Below are positions 2-41,832 of a stretch of 48,469 nucleotides of DNA, one piece after another. Position numbers and translations under genes: made by a program. How positions within the stretch are numbered: the first letter of the stretch is position 1; each line of letters opens with the position of its first letter. The DNA lies in the IMG/VR virus record IMGVR_UViG_3300025598_000056, positions 1 through 48,469 of that record; one strand, given 5' to 3'. The stretch is from a virus. The notes below the pieces were generated by a model, which saw only the letters and a list, made by a program, of their open reading frames with translations, did not search any database and was not told the origin of the DNA.

Positions 2-289
2 GCAGTCAATATGCATAAGCGTATCGCCATGGGTGGCGAGAGCGAAGCAAATCACCTTAAAAAAGGTGGAAAAATTAAGAAGTACGCTAAGGGTGGGTTT
101 ATTTCTGGTGAGAGAGAAGTAAAAGCTCCAGCTGAAATTAGCCATCAAAAGAATGTTAATAAGATTGGAGCCTACCCAGAATCCAAAATTAGAACATTAA
201 TTAATGACAGCGGTCAAAAGCGTCCACTACCTAAACCAACGGGCAAAATTGCTACGATGAAAAAAGGTGGCGGTGCTAGAGGTCGTTAA
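2..289 (+). CDS. Lys/Gly-rich (KGG-motif) protein, probably 5'-partial
   Basis: This is a small, very basic protein with the motifs LKKGGK, YAKGGF and MKKGGG. The reading frame is open back to the first bases of the window and no ribosome binding site is visible in the ten bases before the first ATG (base 11), so the true start may lie outside. The KGG motifs link it to the longer proteins at 5173-6345 and 7174-7743. It is followed directly by the next gene through a TAATG overlap. Function is unknown. I infer a virion or head-assembly role only from its place at the head of the capsid operon. Confidence 0.7.
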   Translation, partial: AVNMHKRIAMGGESEANHLKKGGKIKKYAKGGFISGEREVKAPAEISHQKNVNKIGAYPESKIRTLINDSGQKRPLPKPTGKIATMKKGGGARGR

Positions 290-477
290 TGGATTTAATT
301 AATCAAATAATTCATGCAGTCAAGAAGCAACAGGAAGCCATAATGGTTTCGATGGCAAACGGAAATTGTGCAAGTTTTGATAGTTACCAGCGTCTTGTCG
401 GTGAATATGTGGGTCTCCAGAAGGTTTTGGTGACTATTGACCAACTTTTAGATGAGGAAAAAAATGTCGAGAAATGA
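289..477 (+). CDS. Small unknown protein, 62 aa
   Basis: The ATG overlaps the stop of the preceding gene (TAATG), and the 3' end overlaps the start of the GroES-like gene by 14 bases, so it is translationally coupled on both sides. The protein is predicted to be mainly helical (MDLINQIIHAVKKQQEAIM at its N-terminus) with no signal peptide, membrane segment or recognisable motif. Its position in the head operon suggests a small assembly or packaging accessory role, but I do not recognise the family. Confidence 0.65.
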   Translation: MDLINQIIHAVKKQQEAIMVSMANGNCASFDSYQRLVGEYVGLQKVLVTIDQLLDEEKNVEK

Positions 478-955
478 CATTGTGTCTCAGATTTTTGCAG
501 ATAAAACTGTACCACTTGACCCAAAGATTTTTGATGCTCGTGATGCAGAACAGACGCTTGAAGAAGCGTTTCCAGTAGTAGACCCTCTCATGGCTCCATT
601 TGGAGCTAGAGTTCTTGTTCAATTAAGGGCAGTAAAAGAGAAGGTAACCTCCAGCGGAATCTATATTCCTGAAGAAGTTAAGGAAACTGAGAAGTGGAAC
701 ACCATGATTGGAAAGGTGATTGCTATCGGTGACTTAGCCTTTAAGAAGCGTGACACCATGGAGCCATGGCCAGAAGGTGCATGGGCGCAAGTAGGAGATT
801 TTGTTCGAGTGCCTAAATGGGGCGGTGACCGTTGGGAAATTGACTTTAAAGATGACCGTGGAATTGCTGGGAAGGCGTTATTTACCTTCTTCAATGACCA
901 TGAACTCATCGGTAGAGTCACTGGCGACCCCCGTGACATTAAAGCATTTTTATAA
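464..955 (+). CDS. GroES-like co-chaperonin
   Basis: The 163-residue protein has an N-terminal extension of about 45 residues and then a GroES/Cpn10-like domain. This runs from PFGARVLVQL (the family's PL.DRVLV start), through a segment like the mobile loop (TSSGIYIPEE), GKVIAIGD, and VGDFVRVPKW, to a final strand LFTFFNDHELIGRV. A GroES heptamer caps GroEL. Phage versions such as T4 gp31 substitute for host GroES so that the major capsid protein can fold. The position just before scaffold and capsid genes fits that. I chose ATG 464 because AGGA lies five bases upstream; an in-frame ATG at 452 would put that motif inside the gene. The inserted WPEGAWAQ segment is longer than in bacterial GroES. 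Confidence 0.8.
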   Translation: MSRNDIVSQIFADKTVPLDPKIFDARDAEQTLEEAFPVVDPLMAPFGARVLVQLRAVKEKVTSSGIYIPEEVKETEKWNTMIGKVIAIGDLAFKKRDTMEPWPEGAWAQVGDFVRVPKWGGDRWEIDFKDDRGIAGKALFTFFNDHELIGRVTGDPRDIKAFL

Positions 956-974: not shown

Positions 975-1955
975 ATGAACCCAACCCAAAAGATGGAAAT
1001 GCAGGTTGACGAAGAGCAGGATGGTTCTGCTTTAGTAACCCTGCCAGAAGGTGAAACACCAGCAGTAGAAGAAGAAAATCAGGGTAAACCCGAATCTGAG
1101 TATCGTGAAGATGGCTATGAGGATGTTGAACCTAGTCAAGAGCATGATGTTGACCGTGAGGAATTGCGGGCTCAGCGTCGTGAAGAACGCAAGCTTAAGA
1201 AGCAAATTAGTCGTGAACGCTACAATCAAGCAAATCACCAAGTTACTTTCTTAACCAAACGAAATCAAGAGCTGGCTGAGCGCCTTGCTATCTTAGAAAA
1301 GAAAACCTCTGGTGCTGAATTAGCACGAGTAGATAAAGCTATCGAAGATGCTGGAGTTCAGGTTGAATACGCTAAGATGAAGATGCAAGAAGCTGTTGCT
1401 CAGTCTGATGGCGTAGCATTAACCAGAGCTCAAGAAATGTGGTTTGAAGCTAAACGCAAGCAAGAATCCCTTGAAAGCGTAAAGACTCAGGCTACTAAAC
1501 AAATGTCTCAGCCACGCCAAAACATCAATGTCCCTGACCCAATGGTACAAAAGTTGGCAGCGGATTGGATGGAACGCAATACATGGTACAACCCACACGG
1601 TACTAATGAAGAGTCAGAAATCGCTATGATGATTGACAAAAAGTTAACCGCAGAGGGTTTTGACCCATCAACTCCCGATTATTGGGATGAATTAGATGAA
1701 AGGCTTGAAAAATATGTACCACAAAAAGTAAATCGTGGATATAATGATTCAAGTGTCCGTAAAGAAAGACCGAGGTCTGTTGTGACGAGTTCAGGTAGGG
1801 AATCTACTGCAAGCACCAGAGGGAATGAGTTTAGACTCAGTCCTGACCGTGTCGCCGCCATGAAAGAGGCTGGCATGTGGGATAACCCAGAACTCAAACA
1901 AAAAGCCATTCGCAAATATGCGGAATGGGACAGAACCAACAAACTTAAAGGTTAA
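975..1955 (+). CDS. Putative capsid scaffolding protein
   Basis: The protein is 326 residues, highly charged and rich in Glu, Lys and Arg. The N-terminal third is acidic (EEEN, EYRED, DVDREE). A long predicted coiled coil spans about residues 65-175 (RREERKLKKQISRER onward). The C-terminal region is basic and ends in a helix (residues 290-322). An acidic and coiled-coil body with a basic capsid-binding tail, placed two genes before the major capsid protein, is what tailed-phage scaffolds look like. There is no motif that proves it. AAAGGA precedes the ATG at good spacing. Confidence 0.65.
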   Translation: MNPTQKMEMQVDEEQDGSALVTLPEGETPAVEEENQGKPESEYREDGYEDVEPSQEHDVDREELRAQRREERKLKKQISRERYNQANHQVTFLTKRNQELAERLAILEKKTSGAELARVDKAIEDAGVQVEYAKMKMQEAVAQSDGVALTRAQEMWFEAKRKQESLESVKTQATKQMSQPRQNINVPDPMVQKLAADWMERNTWYNPHGTNEESEIAMMIDKKLTAEGFDPSTPDYWDELDERLEKYVPQKVNRGYNDSSVRKERPRSVVTSSGRESTASTRGNEFRLSPDRVAAMKEAGMWDNPELKQKAIRKYAEWDRTNKLKG

Positions 1956-1960
1956 TAAAA

Positions 1961-2494
1961 ATGGACAATCGATTAAAAAAGAATACTTCAGCAGGTCGTG
2001 AAAGTCGTGGAGTTAGCGACTTAGAGAGACAACCTCCTGAGGAAAGTTTTGTATCTTCTGATGAGCGTCGTAAGATGTTCCGCTCGGAATGGCTTCAAGA
2101 AGCTCTTCCAAACCCACCCGAAATTAAGGGTTTTCACTTATGCTGGTTATCAACAACTAACCAATACGACCCAATACACAAGCGTGTGCGTCTTGGATAC
2201 ACCCCTGTAAAAGCCGAAGAAGTGCCAGGCTTTGAGAACTACAAGGTTAAATCTGGCGAACATGCAGGTTTAGTAGCAGTCAACGAAATGATTCTCTATA
2301 AACTCCCTAACGATGTTTATCAAGAGATGATGACCGAGTTGCATCATAACGCTCCCATGGATGAACAGGAGAAGATTAGGATTCAACAGGAACAGTTGCT
2401 CAATACTAAGGATAGTAACGGGAAACGACTTGGACAAGTTGAAGGTGATGGCATGAACTTTGACCAAACAGTAAAAGCGCCTATATTTAATTAG
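1961..2494 (+). CDS. Conserved head-operon protein, unknown function
   Basis: This 177-residue hydrophilic protein sits between the scaffold-like and capsid genes. The N-terminal 50 residues look disordered. The middle holds a compact region (GFHLCWLSTTNQYDPIHKR ... LGYTPVKAEEV) followed by helical, charged sequence. I recognise the general pattern as a protein that accompanies capsid genes in podovirus-like aquatic phages, but I cannot name its function. A head-assembly or minor head role is inferred from position only. Confidence 0.6.
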   Translation: MDNRLKKNTSAGRESRGVSDLERQPPEESFVSSDERRKMFRSEWLQEALPNPPEIKGFHLCWLSTTNQYDPIHKRVRLGYTPVKAEEVPGFENYKVKSGEHAGLVAVNEMILYKLPNDVYQEMMTELHHNAPMDEQEKIRIQQEQLLNTKDSNGKRLGQVEGDGMNFDQTVKAPIFN

Positions 2495-2517: not shown

Positions 2518-3126
2518 ATGTCCGCAACATCCGCTCCGTTTGGTTTACGCCCTGCCTATTTTCCAACTGGGTTGGAACGGGCTCAAGCGTTAGCCAACGG
2601 TATTGCTTCAGGTTTTGCAAGTAACATCCTAAAAGGTCAGCCAATTGTCTATGGACAAGCGTCTAACCAAACAGGTGTATCAACCAACGGTACTATTCTT
2701 CCAGCTGTAGCCACCTCTAACACTACTGTTACTGGTGCTTTCGCTGGTGTAGAGTGGACTGATACCACTGGTCGTCGTCGTGTATCCAATTACTGGCCTG
2801 CCAGCACAACTGGTACACAAATCGTGGCTTATTTCTACAACGACTTAAACATCGTTTATGAAATCCAGACCGATGCGACCATTGCTCAGACTTCCATTGG
2901 TGATACTTACTTATTTAGTAACATCACTGCTGGTTCTACCACAACTGGTTTATCAGCCGCTACATTAGGTGTATCAACAGCAACTGCAAACGGTGCTACC
3001 ACAGGTCAGATGCGTGTTGTTGATATTGCACCTTATGCAGACAACAACTGGGGGGATGCGTATGTTATCGTTCGTGTCCAATTGGTCAACACACAATTCT
3101 ATGGCAACTATGCCTCGATTGTTTAA
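2518..3126 (+). CDS. Putative head decoration/stabilisation protein
   Basis: The protein is 202 residues, rich in Ala, Thr, Ser and Gly, and predicted to be all beta. It starts MSATSAPFGLRPAYFPTG, a form typical of structural proteins encoded just before the major capsid protein. There is no signal peptide or membrane segment. The segment GAFAGVEWTDTTGRRRVSNY resembles capsid-bound beta-rich cement proteins. A strong AAGGAG lies nine bases before the ATG. The evidence is composition and position, not a catalytic or binding motif. Confidence 0.6.
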   Translation: MSATSAPFGLRPAYFPTGLERAQALANGIASGFASNILKGQPIVYGQASNQTGVSTNGTILPAVATSNTTVTGAFAGVEWTDTTGRRRVSNYWPASTTGTQIVAYFYNDLNIVYEIQTDATIAQTSIGDTYLFSNITAGSTTTGLSAATLGVSTATANGATTGQMRVVDIAPYADNNWGDAYVIVRVQLVNTQFYGNYASIV

Positions 3127-3141
3127 TTAGGAGACTGACAA

Positions 3142-4056
3142 ATGGCAGCCCCAATGCGTAGTACGGATTTCCGCTCAATTGTTGAGCCAATCCTTAATGA
3201 AAGTTTTGATGGAGTTTACGACCAACGAGCTGACGAATGGAGCACTGTGTTCCGTGAGCAAGCTGGTATTCCACGCAACTACCACGAAGAACCTGTCCTT
3301 TATGGATTTGGAGCAGCGCCTCAGTTACCTGATGGCTCACCTGTTTCATACCAACAAGGTGGTGTTCTGTTCCTCCAACGCTACATCTACAATGTGTACG
3401 GCTTGGCATTTGCTTTGACCAAAGTTCTGGTTGAAGACGGTGACCACATCCGCATTGGTCAGGTTTACGCTAAGCACTTGGCTCAATCTTTGGTTGAGAC
3501 TAAGGAAACCTTGGCAGCTAACATCCTGAACCGTGCGTTTAATAGCTCCTACACAGGTGGCGACGGTGTATCTTTAATCAACACAGCTCACCCATTAGCA
3601 GTTGGTACAGCAAGCAACCAGTTGGCAACAGCGGCTGCTTTGTCCCAAACTTCTTTAGAGCAAATGTTGATTCAGATTCGTCAAGCCGTTGACAACAACG
3701 GTAAGAAAATCCGTCTACAGCCTTTGAAGATTGTTGTAGCACCAGGTAATGTGTTCCAAGCTGAAGTATTGCTGAAGAGCGTATTGCGTACTGGTACTGC
3801 TAACAACGACATCAACCCAATTAAATCAATTGGTTTGTTGCCAGAAGGCGCTACTGTAATTAGCCGTTTGACTTCAGCTACTAACTGGTGGATTCAAACC
3901 GATGCTCCAGAGGGTATGAAACTTCTAATGCGTCGTGCTTTGGAGAAGACCATGGAAGGCGATTTCGAGACTGACTCTATGCGCTACAAAGCGACTGAGC
4001 GTTACGCAATCAGCTGGACTGACTGGCGTGCAATGTACGGCACACCAGGCGCTTAA
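3142..4056 (+). CDS. Major capsid protein
   Basis: The 304-residue protein has the size and texture of an HK97-fold capsid subunit. It has a charged N-terminal arm (about residues 1-60), a long spine-helix region around residues 105-130 (AKHLAQSLVETKETLAAN), the sequence SLINTAHPLAVG near residue 150, and a C-terminal P-domain-like part ending YAISWTDWRAMYG. It follows scaffold-like and decoration-like genes and is followed by a strong stem-loop, as capsid genes often are. It has a well spaced ribosome binding site (TAGGAG). Identification rests on gene order and general pattern; a structure prediction would settle it. Confidence 0.75.
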   Translation: MAAPMRSTDFRSIVEPILNESFDGVYDQRADEWSTVFREQAGIPRNYHEEPVLYGFGAAPQLPDGSPVSYQQGGVLFLQRYIYNVYGLAFALTKVLVEDGDHIRIGQVYAKHLAQSLVETKETLAANILNRAFNSSYTGGDGVSLINTAHPLAVGTASNQLATAAALSQTSLEQMLIQIRQAVDNNGKKIRLQPLKIVVAPGNVFQAEVLLKSVLRTGTANNDINPIKSIGLLPEGATVISRLTSATNWWIQTDAPEGMKLLMRRALEKTMEGDFETDSMRYKATERYAISWTDWRAMYGTPGA

Positions 4057-4071
4057 TGTATTAAAGGTTAT

Positions 4072-4094
4072 GTGGGGGAGCCTTAATCCCCCAC
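4072..4094 (+). terminator. Stem-loop after the capsid gene (terminator or attenuator)
   Basis: GTGGGGGA (4072-4079) pairs perfectly with TCCCCCAC (4087-4094) around the loop GCCTTAA. The following bases are only moderately U-rich in RNA (CTTCATTTGTC), so partial termination or RNA 3'-end protection is more likely than a complete stop. The core GGGGGAGC ... AATCCCCC is shared with the stem-loop at 6352. Confidence 0.6.
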
Positions 4095-5172: not shown

Positions 5173-6345
5173 ATGGCAACAAAATTTAGTCGTGAACCAA
5201 AAGAAATGACTACCGAGCCTTCTGCTGATGAAGCAGGTAAAGGTATGAAAAAAGGTGGTCATGCGCACAAGAAGCATATGGCCATGGGCGGAAATCCAAT
5301 GATGGCAATGGCACCTCGTCCTGTAATGGGACGTCGCCCTCCTATGCCAACTGGTGCCCTTCTTCAGCGCAAAAAAGGTGGTAAAGCTGAAAGTGGTAAA
5401 GAGCACAAAGCAGAAATGCATGAAATGAATAAGATTGAAAAAGAACTTAAGCATCATGAAAGCATGAAAGCTAGTAAAGCTCATCGTGGCTTAAAAGCAG
5501 GCGGTAAAGCAGGTATGTACAATCCTCCAGTTGGCGGTTTGCTAGGTGAAGGTAAACCTCATCACAAAGGCACATCTGGTGGTATTGAAGGACCTGGCTA
5601 CAAGCACGGTGGTAAAGCTCATCGTATTTCTGGTCATCCTGAAGGCTCACATGCACACCACAAAGCAATGGCTAAGCATCACAAAGCTAAACATGCAGAA
5701 GGCGGATCTATGCATCATCACAAAATGCATGAGCATCACAAGCGCATGGCTAAAATGGCTGCAGGCGGTACAAGCCCTGTTGATCACGAAGGCGGTAAGC
5801 AATTGAAACGTGGCGGTCATGCTAAACATCACTATGCTAAAGGCGGTCAAGCTTTGGCAGCTAAAGGTGATCGTTTTCAAGATCGTAGTGCATTAAAGCC
5901 AAAAATTGATGTGCAAGATAAAGTTCATGAAGCTAAACAGACTAAGTCTTTTCACACCAAGACAGGTGGAGTAGAAGGTGTTGGTTATAAACATGGCGGT
6001 CATAGCAAGAAGCATTATGCAAAAGGCGGTACTGTATCGCAGAATGTTGCTAAACGCTACTTGAATGACATGAAAGACGGCGCTAAAATGCCTACCAAGA
6101 AAGCTGGAACTGGTGAAATTAAAGAAGGACCAGCTGGCTACAAAAAAGGTGGACATGTTAAGCATGCTCATGGTCATGTTGCTCATCACACTACTCATGG
6201 TCATCATGATTCTGGTCATACCCATATGCACAAACATGCTGCAAAGCATTCGCATGGTCATGACAAGATCGACGGTCATCCTATGAAACATGGTGGTCAT
6301 GCTAAACACCATAAAATGGGTGGCAAGGCTAAGTGTAATTACTAA
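5173..6345 (+). CDS. His/Lys/Gly-rich KGG-repeat protein
   Basis: This is a 390-residue low-complexity protein. By my count it has about 55 histidines and about 15 copies of a short motif of the form x-K/H-x-GG followed by a small or basic residue (MKKGGHAHKK, YKHGGKAHR, YAKGGTVSQ, MKHGGHAKHH). A larger unit is also repeated: GGIEGPGYKHGGKAH and GGVEGVGYKHGGHSKK. It is strongly basic, with no membrane segment or known fold. A ribosome binding site (AGGAG) precedes the ATG. It is flanked by capsid and structural genes and followed by a terminator. Packaging-related DNA binding, metal binding by the His clusters, or capsid-interior cargo are all possible. None is shown. Confidence 0.75.
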   Translation: MATKFSREPKEMTTEPSADEAGKGMKKGGHAHKKHMAMGGNPMMAMAPRPVMGRRPPMPTGALLQRKKGGKAESGKEHKAEMHEMNKIEKELKHHESMKASKAHRGLKAGGKAGMYNPPVGGLLGEGKPHHKGTSGGIEGPGYKHGGKAHRISGHPEGSHAHHKAMAKHHKAKHAEGGSMHHHKMHEHHKRMAKMAAGGTSPVDHEGGKQLKRGGHAKHHYAKGGQALAAKGDRFQDRSALKPKIDVQDKVHEAKQTKSFHTKTGGVEGVGYKHGGHSKKHYAKGGTVSQNVAKRYLNDMKDGAKMPTKKAGTGEIKEGPAGYKKGGHVKHAHGHVAHHTTHGHHDSGHTHMHKHAAKHSHGHDKIDGHPMKHGGHAKHHKMGGKAKCNY

Positions 6346-7173: not shown

Positions 7174-7743
7174 ATGCCACTTATCAAATCTAAATCCCCA
7201 AAAGCATTTAGTAAGAATGTAGCTGCAGAAGTGCATGCAGGTAAACCTGTAAAACAAGCAGTTGCCATTGCTTATTCTGTTAAACGATCTGTTAAGAAAA
7301 AAGACGGTGGCAAACTACCTGGTTTATGGGCAAATATTCATGCTAAGCAAGAACGGATTAAGCATGGCTCAGGCGAGCATATGAGAAAGCCCGGAAGTAA
7401 AGGTGCTCCAACAGATTATGATTTAAAGCATTCACAGTCTAAGAAGATGGCTCATGGCGGTGATGTTAAGCTATCTATTAAACGAGGTGAAAAGAAGCCT
7501 ACTAGTCAAGGTGCTGGCCTTACTGCAAAAGGTCGAGCAAAAGTGAATCGTGAAACAGGTAGTCATTTAAAACCGCCACAAGCAAGTGGTCCTAGACATG
7601 ATTCATTTTGTGCCAGAATGTCAGGCATGAAAGGTCCTATGAAAGATGAAAAAGGACGACCTACACGAAAAGCAGCATCCTTGAAAAGTTGGCATTGTAA
7701 AGACGGTGGTAAGCCTAAAAAGCACAACATAAAAGGGTGGTAA
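7174..7743 (+). CDS. Lys-rich phage protein with KGG-like and SFCARMSG motifs
   Basis: The 189-residue basic protein has three parts. The N-terminal segment (SPKAFSKNVAAEVHAGKPVK, then QAVAIAYSVKR) is a short helical module I recognise as recurring in phage and some bacterial proteins. The middle has KGG-type motifs (KKKDGGKLPG, KMAHGGDVKL). The C-terminal module has SFCARMSGMKGPMKDE and GRPTRKAASLKSWHC with conserved Cys and His. The last part looks like a small fold that might bind metal or nucleic acid. It is found in head operons of related aquatic phages, but no function is established. It overlaps the next start by one base (TAATG). Confidence 0.65.
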   Translation: MPLIKSKSPKAFSKNVAAEVHAGKPVKQAVAIAYSVKRSVKKKDGGKLPGLWANIHAKQERIKHGSGEHMRKPGSKGAPTDYDLKHSQSKKMAHGGDVKLSIKRGEKKPTSQGAGLTAKGRAKVNRETGSHLKPPQASGPRHDSFCARMSGMKGPMKDEKGRPTRKAASLKSWHCKDGGKPKKHNIKGW

Positions 7744-8801
7744 TGAGTACAAGCGGAACAGTAAGCCAAACCGTTATCACTGTTCAACAACTTATTGATA
7801 GTGGTGCTCGGCGAGCAGGTAAATTAGCAGAAGACTTGACAGTTGAACAAGTCAATGCTGCTACTCAGAGTCTGTACTATCTATTGTCAAATCTGGCAAA
7901 TAGAGGTATTCAGTATTGGTGCATTCAAAAGTATGTACTTGGATTAATTCCTGATCATTATCAGTACTATCTGAACACAGGTGTAGTTGATGTACTAAAT
8001 GCCAACTATCGAACTGTTACTCAGAACACTACAGGCGGATATTCTACCACTGGTAATGGTTCATATGCATTTGATGGTCAGTACACCAATATTTGCCAAT
8101 GTACAAATAACACAAGCTCTATTGGAATTAATAACGGATCTGGGCAGAATGTCTATATTGGAACTGTAGGTATTCTACCTGCTGTCAGTGGGTCTGTGAC
8201 AATACAGATTCAATACTCAAATGATGGCACCAACTGGACAACTGCGTATAGCCCTGGTGCCACGAACTGGGTCTCAGGGACATGGCTGTATTATGACCTC
8301 GATCCTTCTGCTAATGTTCCGTATTGGAGAATTCAGCAGACATCTGGTATTAATATGGGTGTATATCAAGTAGTTTTTGGATCCAATGCTACTGAAATTC
8401 CAATGGCTAGAATGAATCGTGATGATTACACCAACTTGCCGAACAAAAATTTTACTAATAACTACCCTTTGCAATACTGGTTTGACAGGAATATTCCTCA
8501 ACCTGCTATATACTTATGGCCTGCACCTCAAATCTATTCGCCACAAATCGTAGTTTGGGCTCACAGATATATTCAAGATGTGGGCGCTTTATCTGGATCT
8601 ATTGAGATTCCTCAAAGATGGTACTTAGCAGTACAGAATATGCTAGCTCATCAAATGGCAATGGAATTACCAAATGTAGAGCCACAAAGAATTATTTATT
8701 GTGAACAGCAAGCTGAAAAATACTGGATGATGGCTGAGCAAGAAGAGCGTGACAAGTCTCCTATTTACTTTGCACCTAACATAAGTCCTTATACAAAATG
8801 A
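7743..8801 (+). CDS. Head-tail connector-like protein with inserted beta domain
   Basis: The 352-residue protein has a split architecture. Residues 10-55 (LIDSGARRAGKLAEDLTVEQ ...) and about 215-352 (IPMARMNRDDYTNLPNKN ... VNMLAHQMAMELPNVEPQR-like helices) look like a tail adaptor or tubular protein of the P22 gp4/T7 gp11 type. Residues about 95-210 form an inserted beta module (IQIQYSNDGTNWTTAY ... YYDLDPSANVPYWRI) like a discoidin/galactose-binding domain. I chose the ATG at 7743, which overlaps the upstream stop as TAATG, over a GTG two codons earlier. The gene is coupled to the next by ATGA. The connector call is by pattern and position. Confidence 0.6.
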   Translation: MSTSGTVSQTVITVQQLIDSGARRAGKLAEDLTVEQVNAATQSLYYLLSNLANRGIQYWCIQKYVLGLIPDHYQYYLNTGVVDVLNANYRTVTQNTTGGYSTTGNGSYAFDGQYTNICQCTNNTSSIGINNGSGQNVYIGTVGILPAVSGSVTIQIQYSNDGTNWTTAYSPGATNWVSGTWLYYDLDPSANVPYWRIQQTSGINMGVYQVVFGSNATEIPMARMNRDDYTNLPNKNFTNNYPLQYWFDRNIPQPAIYLWPAPQIYSPQIVVWAHRYIQDVGALSGSIEIPQRWYLAVQNMLAHQMAMELPNVEPQRIIYCEQQAEKYWMMAEQEERDKSPIYFAPNISPYTK

Positions 8802-18780: not shown

Positions 18781-19437
18781 ATGGCTACCTCCTGTACTCC
18801 CGCATGTACCGCAGCAGCGGCAATGACTTACAATAGTCTGATTACTGATGTAACGCAGTACTTAGAGCGGAATGATACAGCGGTTGTTAATCAGATTCCT
18901 CAGTTTATTATGCTTGCAGAGTTTGAAATTGCGCAAGAAATTAAAACACTTGGTCAATTAAGTGTAGTAGAAAGTACTATGAATGCAGGTAATCCTGTTA
19001 TTCCTAAGCCGGCAAGATGGAGAAAAACCACATCTTTTAATATTACAAATTCTGGTGTAAAGCAACCTGTTTATCTTCGTAAGTATGAATACTTAAGAAA
19101 TTATGCGCCAACTAGTGGTTCTATAGGTGTTCCTCTGTATTATTGTGATTATAATTATGATAACTGGTTAGTCGCTCCTACGCCTGATCAGGCATATACA
19201 TTTGAAGTTCTTTATTATGAGAGGATTCCGCCTTTGTCTTCGTCAAATCAGACAAATTGGATCACACAGAATGCACCAAATGTGATGCTATATGGAACGC
19301 TGCTTCAAGCAATGCCGTTTCTAAAGAACGACCAAAGACAGATATTCCAACAGAAGTATACAGAAGGTATACAAGCTCTCAAGTTAGAAGATCAGATTCG
19401 TATTGCTGACCGTCAAGCAATTGCTCAGGATAGTTAA
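18781..19437 (+). CDS. Head-tail adaptor protein (SU10-type)
   Basis: The 218-residue protein has the pattern of the podovirus adaptor found in SU10-like phages: a helical start (LITDVTQYLERNDTAVVNQI), IPQFIMLAEFEIAQEIKTLG, a beta region around PVYLRKYEYLRNY and APTPDQAYTFEVLYYERIPP, then TNWITQNAPNVMLYGTLLQA and a C-terminal helix. Twelve such subunits would bridge portal and tail. The N-terminal 15 residues (TSCTPACTAAAAM) are odd, with two cysteines; an internal Met 15 start is possible. It is unusual that it lies so far from the capsid gene, after the lysis cassette. Confidence 0.7.
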   Translation: MATSCTPACTAAAAMTYNSLITDVTQYLERNDTAVVNQIPQFIMLAEFEIAQEIKTLGQLSVVESTMNAGNPVIPKPARWRKTTSFNITNSGVKQPVYLRKYEYLRNYAPTSGSIGVPLYYCDYNYDNWLVAPTPDQAYTFEVLYYERIPPLSSSNQTNWITQNAPNVMLYGTLLQAMPFLKNDQRQIFQQKYTEGIQALKLEDQIRIADRQAIAQDS

Positions 19438-30803: not shown

Positions 30804-31077
30804 TTTCTACTCTCTTTAGTAAGTGTAATTCAACAAGGCGTGCATAACCGGCAATATCTCGCCAACTATCCACATGGTCTGGTGTAACAGCTAATCTAGA
30901 TAATTTCATGGCTATCTTAGAAAAATACATTTGATAAACCAATCCCATTTCAAGGCCATAATGATGCTTATAACGGTCTTTTAATAGCTGAATGATTTGA
31001 GCTTCCAATGTAATTCCTTCAAAAAAGTCGCCATAAACTTCACCACGTTCTTTAATGACTTGATCAGTGGTTGTCAT
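30787..31077 (-). CDS. Small phage protein of the DUF6378-like type
   Basis: The 96-residue helical protein reads KERGEVYGDFFEGITLEAQI ... FSKIAMKLSRLAVTPDHVDS, WRDIAGYARLVE. The pattern ERG..YGDF, then K..R, then D.W.DIAGYA.L is a widespread phage family of unknown function, which I match to DUF6378 from memory. The compact all-helical form with acidic residues recalls MazG-type nucleotide hydrolases, though the metal motif is not intact. It is coupled by ATGA to the gene upstream. Confidence 0.7.
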   Translation of the reverse strand: MTTTDQVIKERGEVYGDFFEGITLEAQIIQLLKDRYKHHYGLEMGLVYQMYFSKIAMKLSRLAVTPDHVDSWRDIAGYARLVELHLLKRVENAKNP

Positions 31078-31331
31078 TTCTCTTGTGCCTTTCTTAGTAT
31101 TGCTCTAGCAAAAGCAATGTTTTGTTCACCTGTGTCTGTTTCCATGCCACTCCAAATTTCAATTATTTCATTATCTGTTAGTGTCTTTGTTGGATGGGTG
31201 TAAAGTGGAATCCAATCATCATAAAGTTGTAATACATGAGGTAAAAACTTTTCTTTTTCTTCCAAACTAATTGGTATGTATTTTTTAACTAACTGATTTC
31301 TTGCAAGCCACGCTACTGGTTCATTGTTCAT
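31074..31331 (-). CDS. Unknown protein with PLYTHP...AQEK module, short copy
   Basis: The 85-residue protein holds the module IPLYTHPTKTLTDNEI and ends FARAILRKAQEK. The same module, with the same ending, closes the 161-residue protein at 41347. The DNA for the last part is identical over 32 bases (31075-31106 and 41348-41379), pointing to recent duplication or gene conversion. I recognise this C-terminal module from many enterobacterial and aquatic phages, without a function. It is coupled by ATGA on both sides. Confidence 0.65.
   Translation of the reverse strand: MNNEPVAWLARNQLVKKYIPISLEEKEKFLPHVLQLYDDWIPLYTHPTKTLTDNEIIEIWSGMETDTGEQNIAFARAILRKAQEK
31075..31106. repeat. 32-base repeat, copy A
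   Basis: This is identical to 41348-41379. The first 18 bases (catttctcttgtgccttt) occur a third time at 41148-41165. On the - strand the 18-base part encodes the end K-A-Q-E-K-stop of one gene and includes the ATG of the next. Confidence 0.85.
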
Positions 31332-41150: not shown

Positions 41151-41350
41151 TTCTCTTGTGCCTTTACATAGCTGTGCATATTAAACCAATGCTTGCGCAT
41201 AGACTCGGGATACATTTCAATTAACCAATCTTGAAACGCATTTGCTGGATTGATATTTAAGAGTAATCCATCTTCATCTTTGCATTGCATCAAAGTAATT
41301 AGGAGGTTCTCTAAAGATTCCTTGCTTATGTTCTTTTTATCTGACTTCAT
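41147..41350 (-). CDS. Unknown protein, 67 aa, ending KAQEK
   Basis: It starts MKSDKKNISKESLENLLITL and continues LNINPANAFQDWLIEMYPES, then HSYVKAQEK. The last five codons share an 18-base DNA stretch with the ends of the genes at 31074 and 41347. The middle looks like a helical domain. Function unknown. The repeated junction places its stop and the MazG-like start in the same ATGA. Confidence 0.6.
   Translation of the reverse strand: MKSDKKNISKESLENLLITLMQCKDEDGLLLNINPANAFQDWLIEMYPESMRKHWFNMHSYVKAQEK
41148..41165. repeat. 18-base repeat, copy C
   Basis: The sequence catttctcttgtgccttt is shared with the longer repeats at 31075 and 41348. It encodes A-Q-E-K-stop on the - strand and contains the next start codon. 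Confidence 0.75.
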
Positions 41351-41832
41351 TTCTCTTGTGCCTTTCTTAGTATTGCTCTGCCCAATTCAACAGGAAAGTT
41401 TCTCCAACCACCATCGGATTTTTTAGATTCTGTTAAAGCAAAGTCTTGCTCCACAGTTCTAAACACTTCCTCTATTTCCTCATCTGTTAGTGTCTTTGCT
41501 GGATGGGTGTAGAGTGGAACATAACCTTCTTTTGGGTTTGGAATAATACCGCTTGCCGTTACCCAATAATCATGTTCTTCTAAATACTTTCCATACGCTA
41601 CTGGTTCATTGCTAAAGACTTTTTCAAATTCAGGTATTTCTTTAAACAATAACTCTATTTCAGCTCGCTGTTTTAAGATAACATCTAAATCAGCCAATCT
41701 AGCCAACTTTAATTCTTTTAGTTCAGAATGTTGCTGGCGTAGCATGGCACAGGTTTTAACCATTAAATCTTCATTAACAAACCAAAGCCTGTCATCGTTT
41801 TCCAATACATCAGCTAGTTCATTTGCAGTCAT
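41347..41832 (-). CDS. Unknown protein with PLYTHP...AQEK module, long copy
   Basis: The 161-residue protein has a coiled-coil-like N-terminal half (AMLRQQHSELKELKLARLAD), a linker with EEHDYWVTASGIIPNPKEGY, and the C-terminal module VPLYTHPAKTLTDEEIEEVF ... LGRAILRKAQEK, shared with the protein at 31074. The module is common in phages and carries no known activity. The DNA repeat shows recent exchange between the two loci. Coupled to neighbours by ATGA overlaps. Confidence 0.65.
   Translation of the reverse strand: MTANELADVLENDDRLWFVNEDLMVKTCAMLRQQHSELKELKLARLADLDVILKQRAEIELLFKEIPEFEKVFSNEPVAYGKYLEEHDYWVTASGIIPNPKEGYVPLYTHPAKTLTDEEIEEVFRTVEQDFALTESKKSDGGWRNFPVELGRAILRKAQEK
41348..41379. 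repeat. 32-base repeat, copy B
   Basis: Identical to 31075-31106. A second similar stretch (around 41482-41520 and 31176-31212) encodes the PLYTHP part of the same module with few differences. Confidence 0.85.

Follow-up and report, generated by a model that had tools for sequence, protein, structure and literature searches.

The textbook capsid-specific co-chaperonin is gp31 of bacteriophage T4, and the explanation usually given for it rests on the size of its client. Marine et al. 2017 are said to have dealt with chaperonins of the virioplankton. In the parts of PMC6318259 available to us, gp31 is described as dedicated to gp23, a client of about 56 kDa whose size explains a larger cage; its mobile loop has 22 residues against 16, its chamber is 8% larger, it has no roof loops, and it is able to replace GroES for all Escherichia coli clients. 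The available part of PMC4294664 states that lambda prohead assembly needs GroES as well as GroEL and suggests that a siphovirus GroES may serve a complex capsid or tail. GroES is also counted among the 13 core genes of HTVC023P-type phages (PMC9599517, available in part) and is marked on a phage genome map (PMC10149686, available in part); in these available portions neither paper discusses a link between GroES and the capsid or an extension of the loop, and a term search of PMC10611076, which concerns DSL-LC04, returned neither "groes" nor "chaperon" in the main text. Within the open-licence literature, as far as its text was available, we did not find a description of a fixed cassette of GroES and major capsid protein (MCP) or of the loop extension.

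We analyzed a virus record of 48,469 bases (IMGVR_UViG_3300025598_000056; here, the window), in which a plus-strand gene at positions 464..955 encodes a GroES-like co-chaperonin of 163 aa and 18.4 kDa. Two ATG codons could start it, at 464 and at 452 (adding 4 aa), and the one at 464 is the likelier because AGGA lies just upstream. The protein matched Pfam family PF00166 (Cpn10) over residues 44-127 (36 bits, cut-off 21.1) and phrog_3188 ("co-chaperonin GroES"), and a profile search of the PDB with eight relatives returned the chloroplast Cpn20 as the best match (4e-22), with Thermus Cpn10 at an E value of 2e-17. The AlphaFold2 model, computed from an input of 49 phage sequences (pLDDT 85.8, pTM 0.76), was nearest to Cpn10s and gp31: these filled all top 16 rows of a VIA-align search (Z 9.3-6.6, 71-97 residues), the best Cpn10 aligning over 94 residues with a Z of 9.3 and an rmsd of 3.5, and oxidoreductases with GroES-like domains ranked next at Z 6.2 and lower. 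Foldseek placed T4 gp31 first in the PDB (E value 1.4e-3), where no match passed 1e-3; 22 viral models did pass, the best of them one named GroES. These results indicate that 464-955 is a real gene and a member of the Cpn10/GroES family, as an initial annotation made from the letters alone had proposed.

The N-terminal extension described in that annotation is present as well, at about 42 aa (residues 1-42, 464..589, plus strand), and was modelled with low-to-middling confidence as carrying a short helix at residues 3-12. Among relatives its length runs from about 4 to 75 aa (a rough count that takes the first ATG as the start), and we therefore rejected the extension as a hallmark of the family. 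The median dN/dS of GroES against relatives was 0.078 (79 tried, 34 gave values, 21 with dS under 2.5), with usable dS values of 1.0-2.5 that are near saturation, which is consistent with purifying selection.

GroES is the first of five plus-strand genes, followed by a putative scaffold, proteins of 177 and 202 aa and an HK97-fold MCP, after which comes a terminator-like hairpin. Just before it, the ORF list has a small plus-strand ORF of 62 aa (289..477) that overlaps the GroES start by 14 nt; similar small ORFs of 55-79 aa sit at the GroES start in the 12 sequences aligned (11 of them relatives), a homology judged by eye. The putative scaffold (975..1955, plus strand, 326 aa), recognized by its position and composition, has an acidic N terminus and a coiled-coil-like character, and a search of solved structures with its profile returned only five weak matches (E values 0.028-0.051). 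The two conserved cassette proteins that follow, of 177 aa (1961..2494, plus strand) and 202 aa (2518..3126, plus strand), were recognized by profiles and by the survey of loci, and the second is a possible cement protein. The MCP gene (3142..4056, plus strand) encodes 304 aa and 33.5 kDa; its product matched PF25209 (46.2 bits, cut-off 27), PF10124 (26.9 bits), phrog_4523 (51 bits), phrog_133 and phrog_371, and its AlphaFold2 model (pLDDT 87.2) found HK97-fold capsids and encapsulins in the PDB with Z values up to 15.5. Profile searches of solved structures with the MCP and with the 202-aa protein returned no match at an E value of 0.1 or below. By profile and by fold the protein is an HK97-fold MCP (Phage_capsid_4 / Mu gpT-like), so the capsid gene expected downstream of GroES is a true one and the scaffold before it a putative one. 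The hairpin (4072..4094, plus strand), found by folding, begins 16 nt past the MCP stop, and a folding energy under -15 kcal/mol was reached by the 70 nt 3' of the MCP in 95% of the 230 loci examined and by 15% of the 171 stretches 3' of GroES, the sole comparison set, which consists of unshuffled sequence.

Elsewhere in the window, the genes at 5173-6345, 2-289 and 7174-7743 encode proteins rich in Lys, His and Gly that repeat KGG-like motifs. The 390-aa protein, of which 16% is K, 14% H and 16% G, has 12 of these motifs, against 2 in 14 other window genes that total 4362 aa. ORFs with six or more such motifs were present in 34 of 80 GroES-led loci (best 80 of 350) and in 2 of 42 distant MCP-led loci; these are possibly DNA-condensing head proteins. 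Two proteins resembled the SU10 adaptor (7737-8801 and 18781-19437), the first below the curated cut-off and with an F5/8 type C (discoidin) domain match that was also below its cut-off. A 44-nt direct repeat, 89% identical, lies at 31074-31117 and 41347-41390, 10.3 kb apart, and a minus-strand ORF has the second copy at its 3' end.

Next, we looked into how consistently GroES and the MCP occur together, a survey that the initial annotation had named as one of its checks. IMG/VR was searched with the single window GroES (best 80 of 350) and with an alignment of the MCP (best 80 of at least 598), and a search of genome contigs (best 80 of 93 fetched) covered metagenome bins for the most part, together with isolates such as Leisingera sp. 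SS27 and Salinisphaera hydrothermalis. Because the best 80 rows of each search were taken, the samples lean towards closer relatives, and locus counts were not deduplicated except where stated. GroES lay upstream of the MCP on the same strand in all 50 MCP-led IMG/VR loci (80 fetched) that had at least 2500 nt upstream, at a distance of 1975-3167 nt (median 2115); a GroES fragment lay upstream in one further locus, L158, which is shorter. Conversely, the MCP was found in 53/53 GroES-led loci with at least 3200 nt downstream (80 fetched). Among genome contigs with at least 2500 nt upstream, GroES preceded the MCP in 60 of 62 (80 fetched), and reading the ORFs of the two misses indicated cassettes cut within, L251 by apparent chromosomal genes and L258 by a run of N and chromosomal-type genes. 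The order and strand of the five genes were constant in the 183 loci (183/183) where all five profiles matched, and the 191 loci with both GroES and MCP had the scaffold in 185, the 177-aa gene in 185 and the 202-aa gene in 191. The cassette also sits in isolate contigs of 1.19 Mb (L268, Leisingera sp. SS27) and 168 kb (L238, Salinisphaera hydrothermalis), and such large contigs suggest that the lineage has temperate members.

The choice of profile affected these counts. PF00166 alone found a Cpn10 in 28/50 and 21/38 MCP-bearing contigs, fragments included, and most of the contigs it missed were short or cut upstream of the MCP. Four loci that it had left as GroES-negative (L092, L104, L105 and L162) were rejected as such, since a GroES profile built for the lineage found a full GroES in each; PF00166 thus undercounts. 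The lineage profile in turn misses the Cpn10s of MW202601 and BK063670, both of which Pfam found. In an outgroup reached through the MW202601 MCP (L182-L189), the lineage profile, which misses the Cpn10 of MW202601 itself, found GroES in 0/8 fetched stretches, and PF00166 found a Cpn10 in 1/8 records, 7/8 of these being fragments of 4.7-14 kb. We rejected chance linkage of GroES and MCP on the locus counts. These results indicate that the linkage is the rule, a fixed state in a large lineage; the initial annotation had called it unusual, a description that does not fit such a lineage, nor the Cpn10s in the structural modules of Shewanella phage 1/44 and Vibrio phage 1.049.O.

We obtained a similar picture from GenBank phages. 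Three MCP queries combined gave 21 phage records with the MCP family, and all 21 had a Cpn10: 16 by PF00166 over the whole record, RLK, KcrB and Pra-JY27 by tblastn, and MW202604 and BK063670 separately. The records are related and non-independent, four Caulobacter phages being near-copies and MW202601 and MW202604 looking like one virus. The cassette was linked in 18, of which 14 were read from annotation and 4 (RLK, KcrB, Pra-JY27 and MinM2, where it spans the record's origin) were inferred from match positions; in MW202675, extra small ORFs are inserted. HTVC023P-type pelagiphages, CRP-901-type roseophages and the Caulobacter phage RW group have this cassette in this order and themselves belong to the group. 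In the remaining records the genes are unlinked: MW202601 and its twin MW202604 carry cpn10 among replication-type genes, and BK063670, assigned to a Methanomicrobiales host, carries groS upstream of the terminase. Since these viruses keep a nonadjacent Cpn10, the pairing of Cpn10 and MCP outlives the linkage. Three records in the set (OL906435, PP438419 and OQ594354; L006, L175) have 65,014 bases each and bear three cyanobacterial host names; their compared cassette DNA is 100% identical, the OQ594354 match covering 55% of the query because the cassette spans the record start, and the host labels or the independence of the isolates deserve checking.

The window was searched for a Cpn60 together with 14 phage records, and none was found (0/15); within these 15 records, a phage-supplied GroEL was thus rejected. 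The lid would therefore use host GroEL. The lineage GroES shares with cellular GroES/Cpn10 (PF00166) the domain, the fold, a GGIxL-type loop motif and the roof segment; it differs in lacking a groEL partner gene (0/15 records), in its N- and C-terminal extensions and in the mobile loop, whose C-terminal limb is four residues longer and is predicted to hold a helix.

We then compared the mobile loop across the lineage. Alignments place it at residues 56-82 (629..709, plus strand) with its hydrophobic tripeptide present as GIYI at residues 65-68, and the structure prediction that the initial annotation had put forward as its test gave a Cpn10-like fold with this loop in place. A helix is predicted at residues 70-79 (671..700, plus strand; AlphaFold2 and alignment), in the C-terminal limb, whose length we counted from alignment columns, with E. 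coli GroES L27 and V40 as the flanking positions. Of 209 phage loci, 205 had a limb of 17 residues, 3 had 18 and 1 had 14; the cellular Cpn10s had 13 (22/22), four fewer than the cassette GroES, and the same four-residue gap appeared in HMMER alignments of relatives to solved Cpn10s. Outside the cassette, the limb was 13 residues in BK063670, Shewanella phage 1/44, Vibrio phage 1.049.O, D93 and Motura, and the Cpn10 in the replication module of MW202601 (13699-14163; L191) had 21, the longest seen. The roof-loop segment (residues 90-110, 731..793, plus strand) is present by alignment and rich in aromatic residues; it measured 20 residues in 132 of the 209 phage loci and 17 in a further 50, and 8 loci had fewer than 16, compared with 16 residues in 19/22 cellular Cpn10s.

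Taken together, we read the gene as encoding a phage GroES (Cpn10) that serves head morphogenesis in particular and caps host GroEL, and we give this reading a probability of about 0.68. The placement of the gene at the head of the capsid genes, which the initial annotation had pointed out, is most simply that of a putative head-assembly co-chaperonin, given its Cpn10 family and fold and the constant cassette, and the conservation of the arrangement across related viruses suggests that the shell protein needs a private lid to fold. The cassette would be transcribed late as one unit ending after the MCP gene, and a single transcript of this kind would have the co-chaperonin made just before its client. 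Seven GroES copies would form the lid, which would dock on host GroEL through the GIYI of its mobile loop and replace or supplement host GroES. Newly made MCP (33.5 kDa), the presumed main client, would fold in the GroEL cage and then be handed to the scaffold, and the longer C-terminal limb may alter the tightness or height of the lid.

T4 gp31 is the nearest model for such a protein, being phage encoded, with a GroES fold, a lengthened mobile loop, use of host GroEL and a capsid protein as its client, a client that is inferred for the lineage. By sequence no match was detected: the family HMM does not match the gp31 locus, and 1g31 was absent from the PDB profile matches at E values up to 1. 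Its loop limbs measure 14 residues (C-terminal) and 16 versus 12 (N-terminal), in an alignment that the divergence of gp31 makes uncertain. Both loops are lengthened, that of the lineage by four residues, but on opposite limbs; moreover, gp31, in the part of its description available to us, is without the roof loops that the lineage keeps, and its client gp23 has 56 kDa whereas the window MCP has 33.5 kDa and is not oversized for a GroES cage. The genes are also placed differently: gene 31 has rIII and 31.1 as its neighbours, and the 7 kb examined there held no capsid gene, whereas the lineage GroES heads the capsid cassette. The window GroES thus most likely works like gp31 and yet is not a gp31, given its roof, its limb and its small client.

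These differences bear on whether the longer mobile loop lifts the lid and so makes room for a client, as in T4. The extra length across the family (17 residues in 205/209 loci against 13 in 22/22 cellular proteins) and the parallel of gp31, whose longer loop (22 versus 16) goes with a cage 8% larger in the available text of PMC6318259, argue for such an enlargement. We nevertheless consider it doubtful: an MCP of 33.5 kDa is far smaller than the roughly 56 kDa that the cage can hold, most members retain the roof segment that gp31 lacks, the extra residues are modelled within a helix and would not be slack, and an 826-aa portal-type protein (L001), another candidate client, would exceed even the gp31 cage. 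The initial annotation had held that the linkage implies a modified GroEL cavity. Linkage does not imply this, and client size cannot be the reason as it is for gp23 because the MCP is only 33.5 kDa; an altered lid geometry is the part of the claim that stands as a possibility, because the mobile loop is longer than in cellular Cpn10.

The Cpn10s of other phages bear on a further reading, in which the phage GroES boosts or redirects host GroEL for many late proteins (tail, fibre, portal) and is adjacent to the MCP only because both genes are late. A tblastn search with E. coli GroES gave 90 phage records, so that phage Cpn10 is not rare and the precedents extend well past "T4 gp31 and a few others"; the 60 matches listed included jumbo phages and some that resemble host groES, these host-like ones sitting in prophage-type records. 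Cpn10 lies among nonstructural genes in D93 and Motura; in Shewanella phage 1/44 and Vibrio phage 1.049.O it has tail-completion genes on one side and major tail genes on the other. The D93, Motura and 1/44 positions would suit a general supplement, as would the finding that gp31 can stand in for GroES with every E. coli client (PMC6318259, available in part). On the other hand, the lineage GroES is fixed in the head cassette between the small ORF and the putative scaffold, and Cpn10 accompanies one MCP family in 21/21 GenBank records, so that we find a general supplement unlikely. Among the few phages examined, only this lineage has a Cpn10 directly heading a capsid cassette. Phages 1/44, 1.049.O and Pseudoalteromonas phage B8b resemble it in having the Cpn10 within a structural module, and they differ in that the Cpn10 lies amid tail genes and the MCP has 672-688 aa with a fused head protease (annotated or matched); in 1/44 and 1.049.O the loop limb has the normal 13 residues, unlike in the window lineage. 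The fused protease-capsid proteins of 1/44 (L304:1132-3198) and of a second record (L305:1168-3186) belong to phrog_4523. The 1/44 and 1.049.O MCPs match this family over its full length (739 and 735 bits), and the MW202601 MCP matches it with 55 bits; because the window MCP matches phrog_4523 too, these capsids may be remote relatives of it, and the pairing of Cpn10 and capsid may reach beyond the lineage. A direct profile comparison of the 1/44-type MCP with the window MCP was weak (probability 14%, E value 0.0019).

Finally, we assessed how far common ancestry accounts for the arrangement. In a tree of 75 Cpn10 domains (106 columns kept, with a bootstrap that had not settled), 51 cassette members formed one side of a branch (99/98.7), and the Cpn10s of MW202601 and BK063670 grouped with the cellular rows on long branches, which suggests an independent origin for these two; with the 22 cellular rows held as one clade, p-AU was 0.26 and a common origin was not rejected. 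Across 90 nonredundant loci, the divergence of GroES tracked that of the MCP (r = 0.825), and MCP divergence also tracked that of the scaffold (r = 0.83) and the 177-aa gene (r = 0.89), while the 202-aa gene correlated at about 0.59 with each other cassette gene (0.593 with GroES). Correlated divergence and linkage are equally expected from plain vertical inheritance of one block. The linkage could then be an accident of one ancestry, frozen in place and without a functional tie to the capsid, for which the single origin implied by the branch would suffice; against this, the order has been kept over a mean GroES divergence of 65% in the 90 loci, GroES dN/dS is low, and Cpn10 is retained even where it is unlinked, and we regard such an accident as improbable. 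A GroES ring that has given up its work with GroEL and now serves in assembly or in the virion would fit the variable N-terminal extensions and an Alcaligenes phage member with a rearranged loop, but is very improbable given that the GroEL-docking loop keeps its Gly and hydrophobic residues in 7/8 aligned members. In that alignment of eight, the seven have Gly followed by hydrophobic residues (one as GIIR), and the eighth has GRIVL; the Alcaligenes phage is QDWS535, whose cassette Cpn10 (L170:3531-3872) is without a clear GGIxL motif.

A co-chaperonin dedicated to head assembly thus accounts best for the locus, although a 33.5-kDa MCP should fit a normal cage, and size would not be what makes host GroES fall short. 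A wider and more tentative proposal is that the co-chaperonin is a hallmark of one HK97-type capsid lineage, spanning viruses of bacteria and methanogens, for whose small MCP host GroES does not allow productive folding; the odds, as we see them, are against it. If it were true, each branch would keep a Cpn10, either fixed in the cassette with a longer C-terminal limb or placed separately, as in MW202601 and BK063670, where it was perhaps acquired, and possibly in the 1/44 group too. Loop lengthening for capsid folding would then have evolved at least twice, on opposite limbs, in this lineage and in T4 gp31, and the role of the lid would be one of chemistry or timing and not of volume, with the client far below the cage limit. 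In this large and environmentally common lineage, GroES is tied to a small MCP with near-perfect linkage and a family-wide loop extension. The lineage is therefore naturally suited to asking if a phage lid acts through the volume of the cage, through affinity or through supply, and isolates such as Caulobacter phage RW, the pelagiphages and the roseophages are available for testing this directly.
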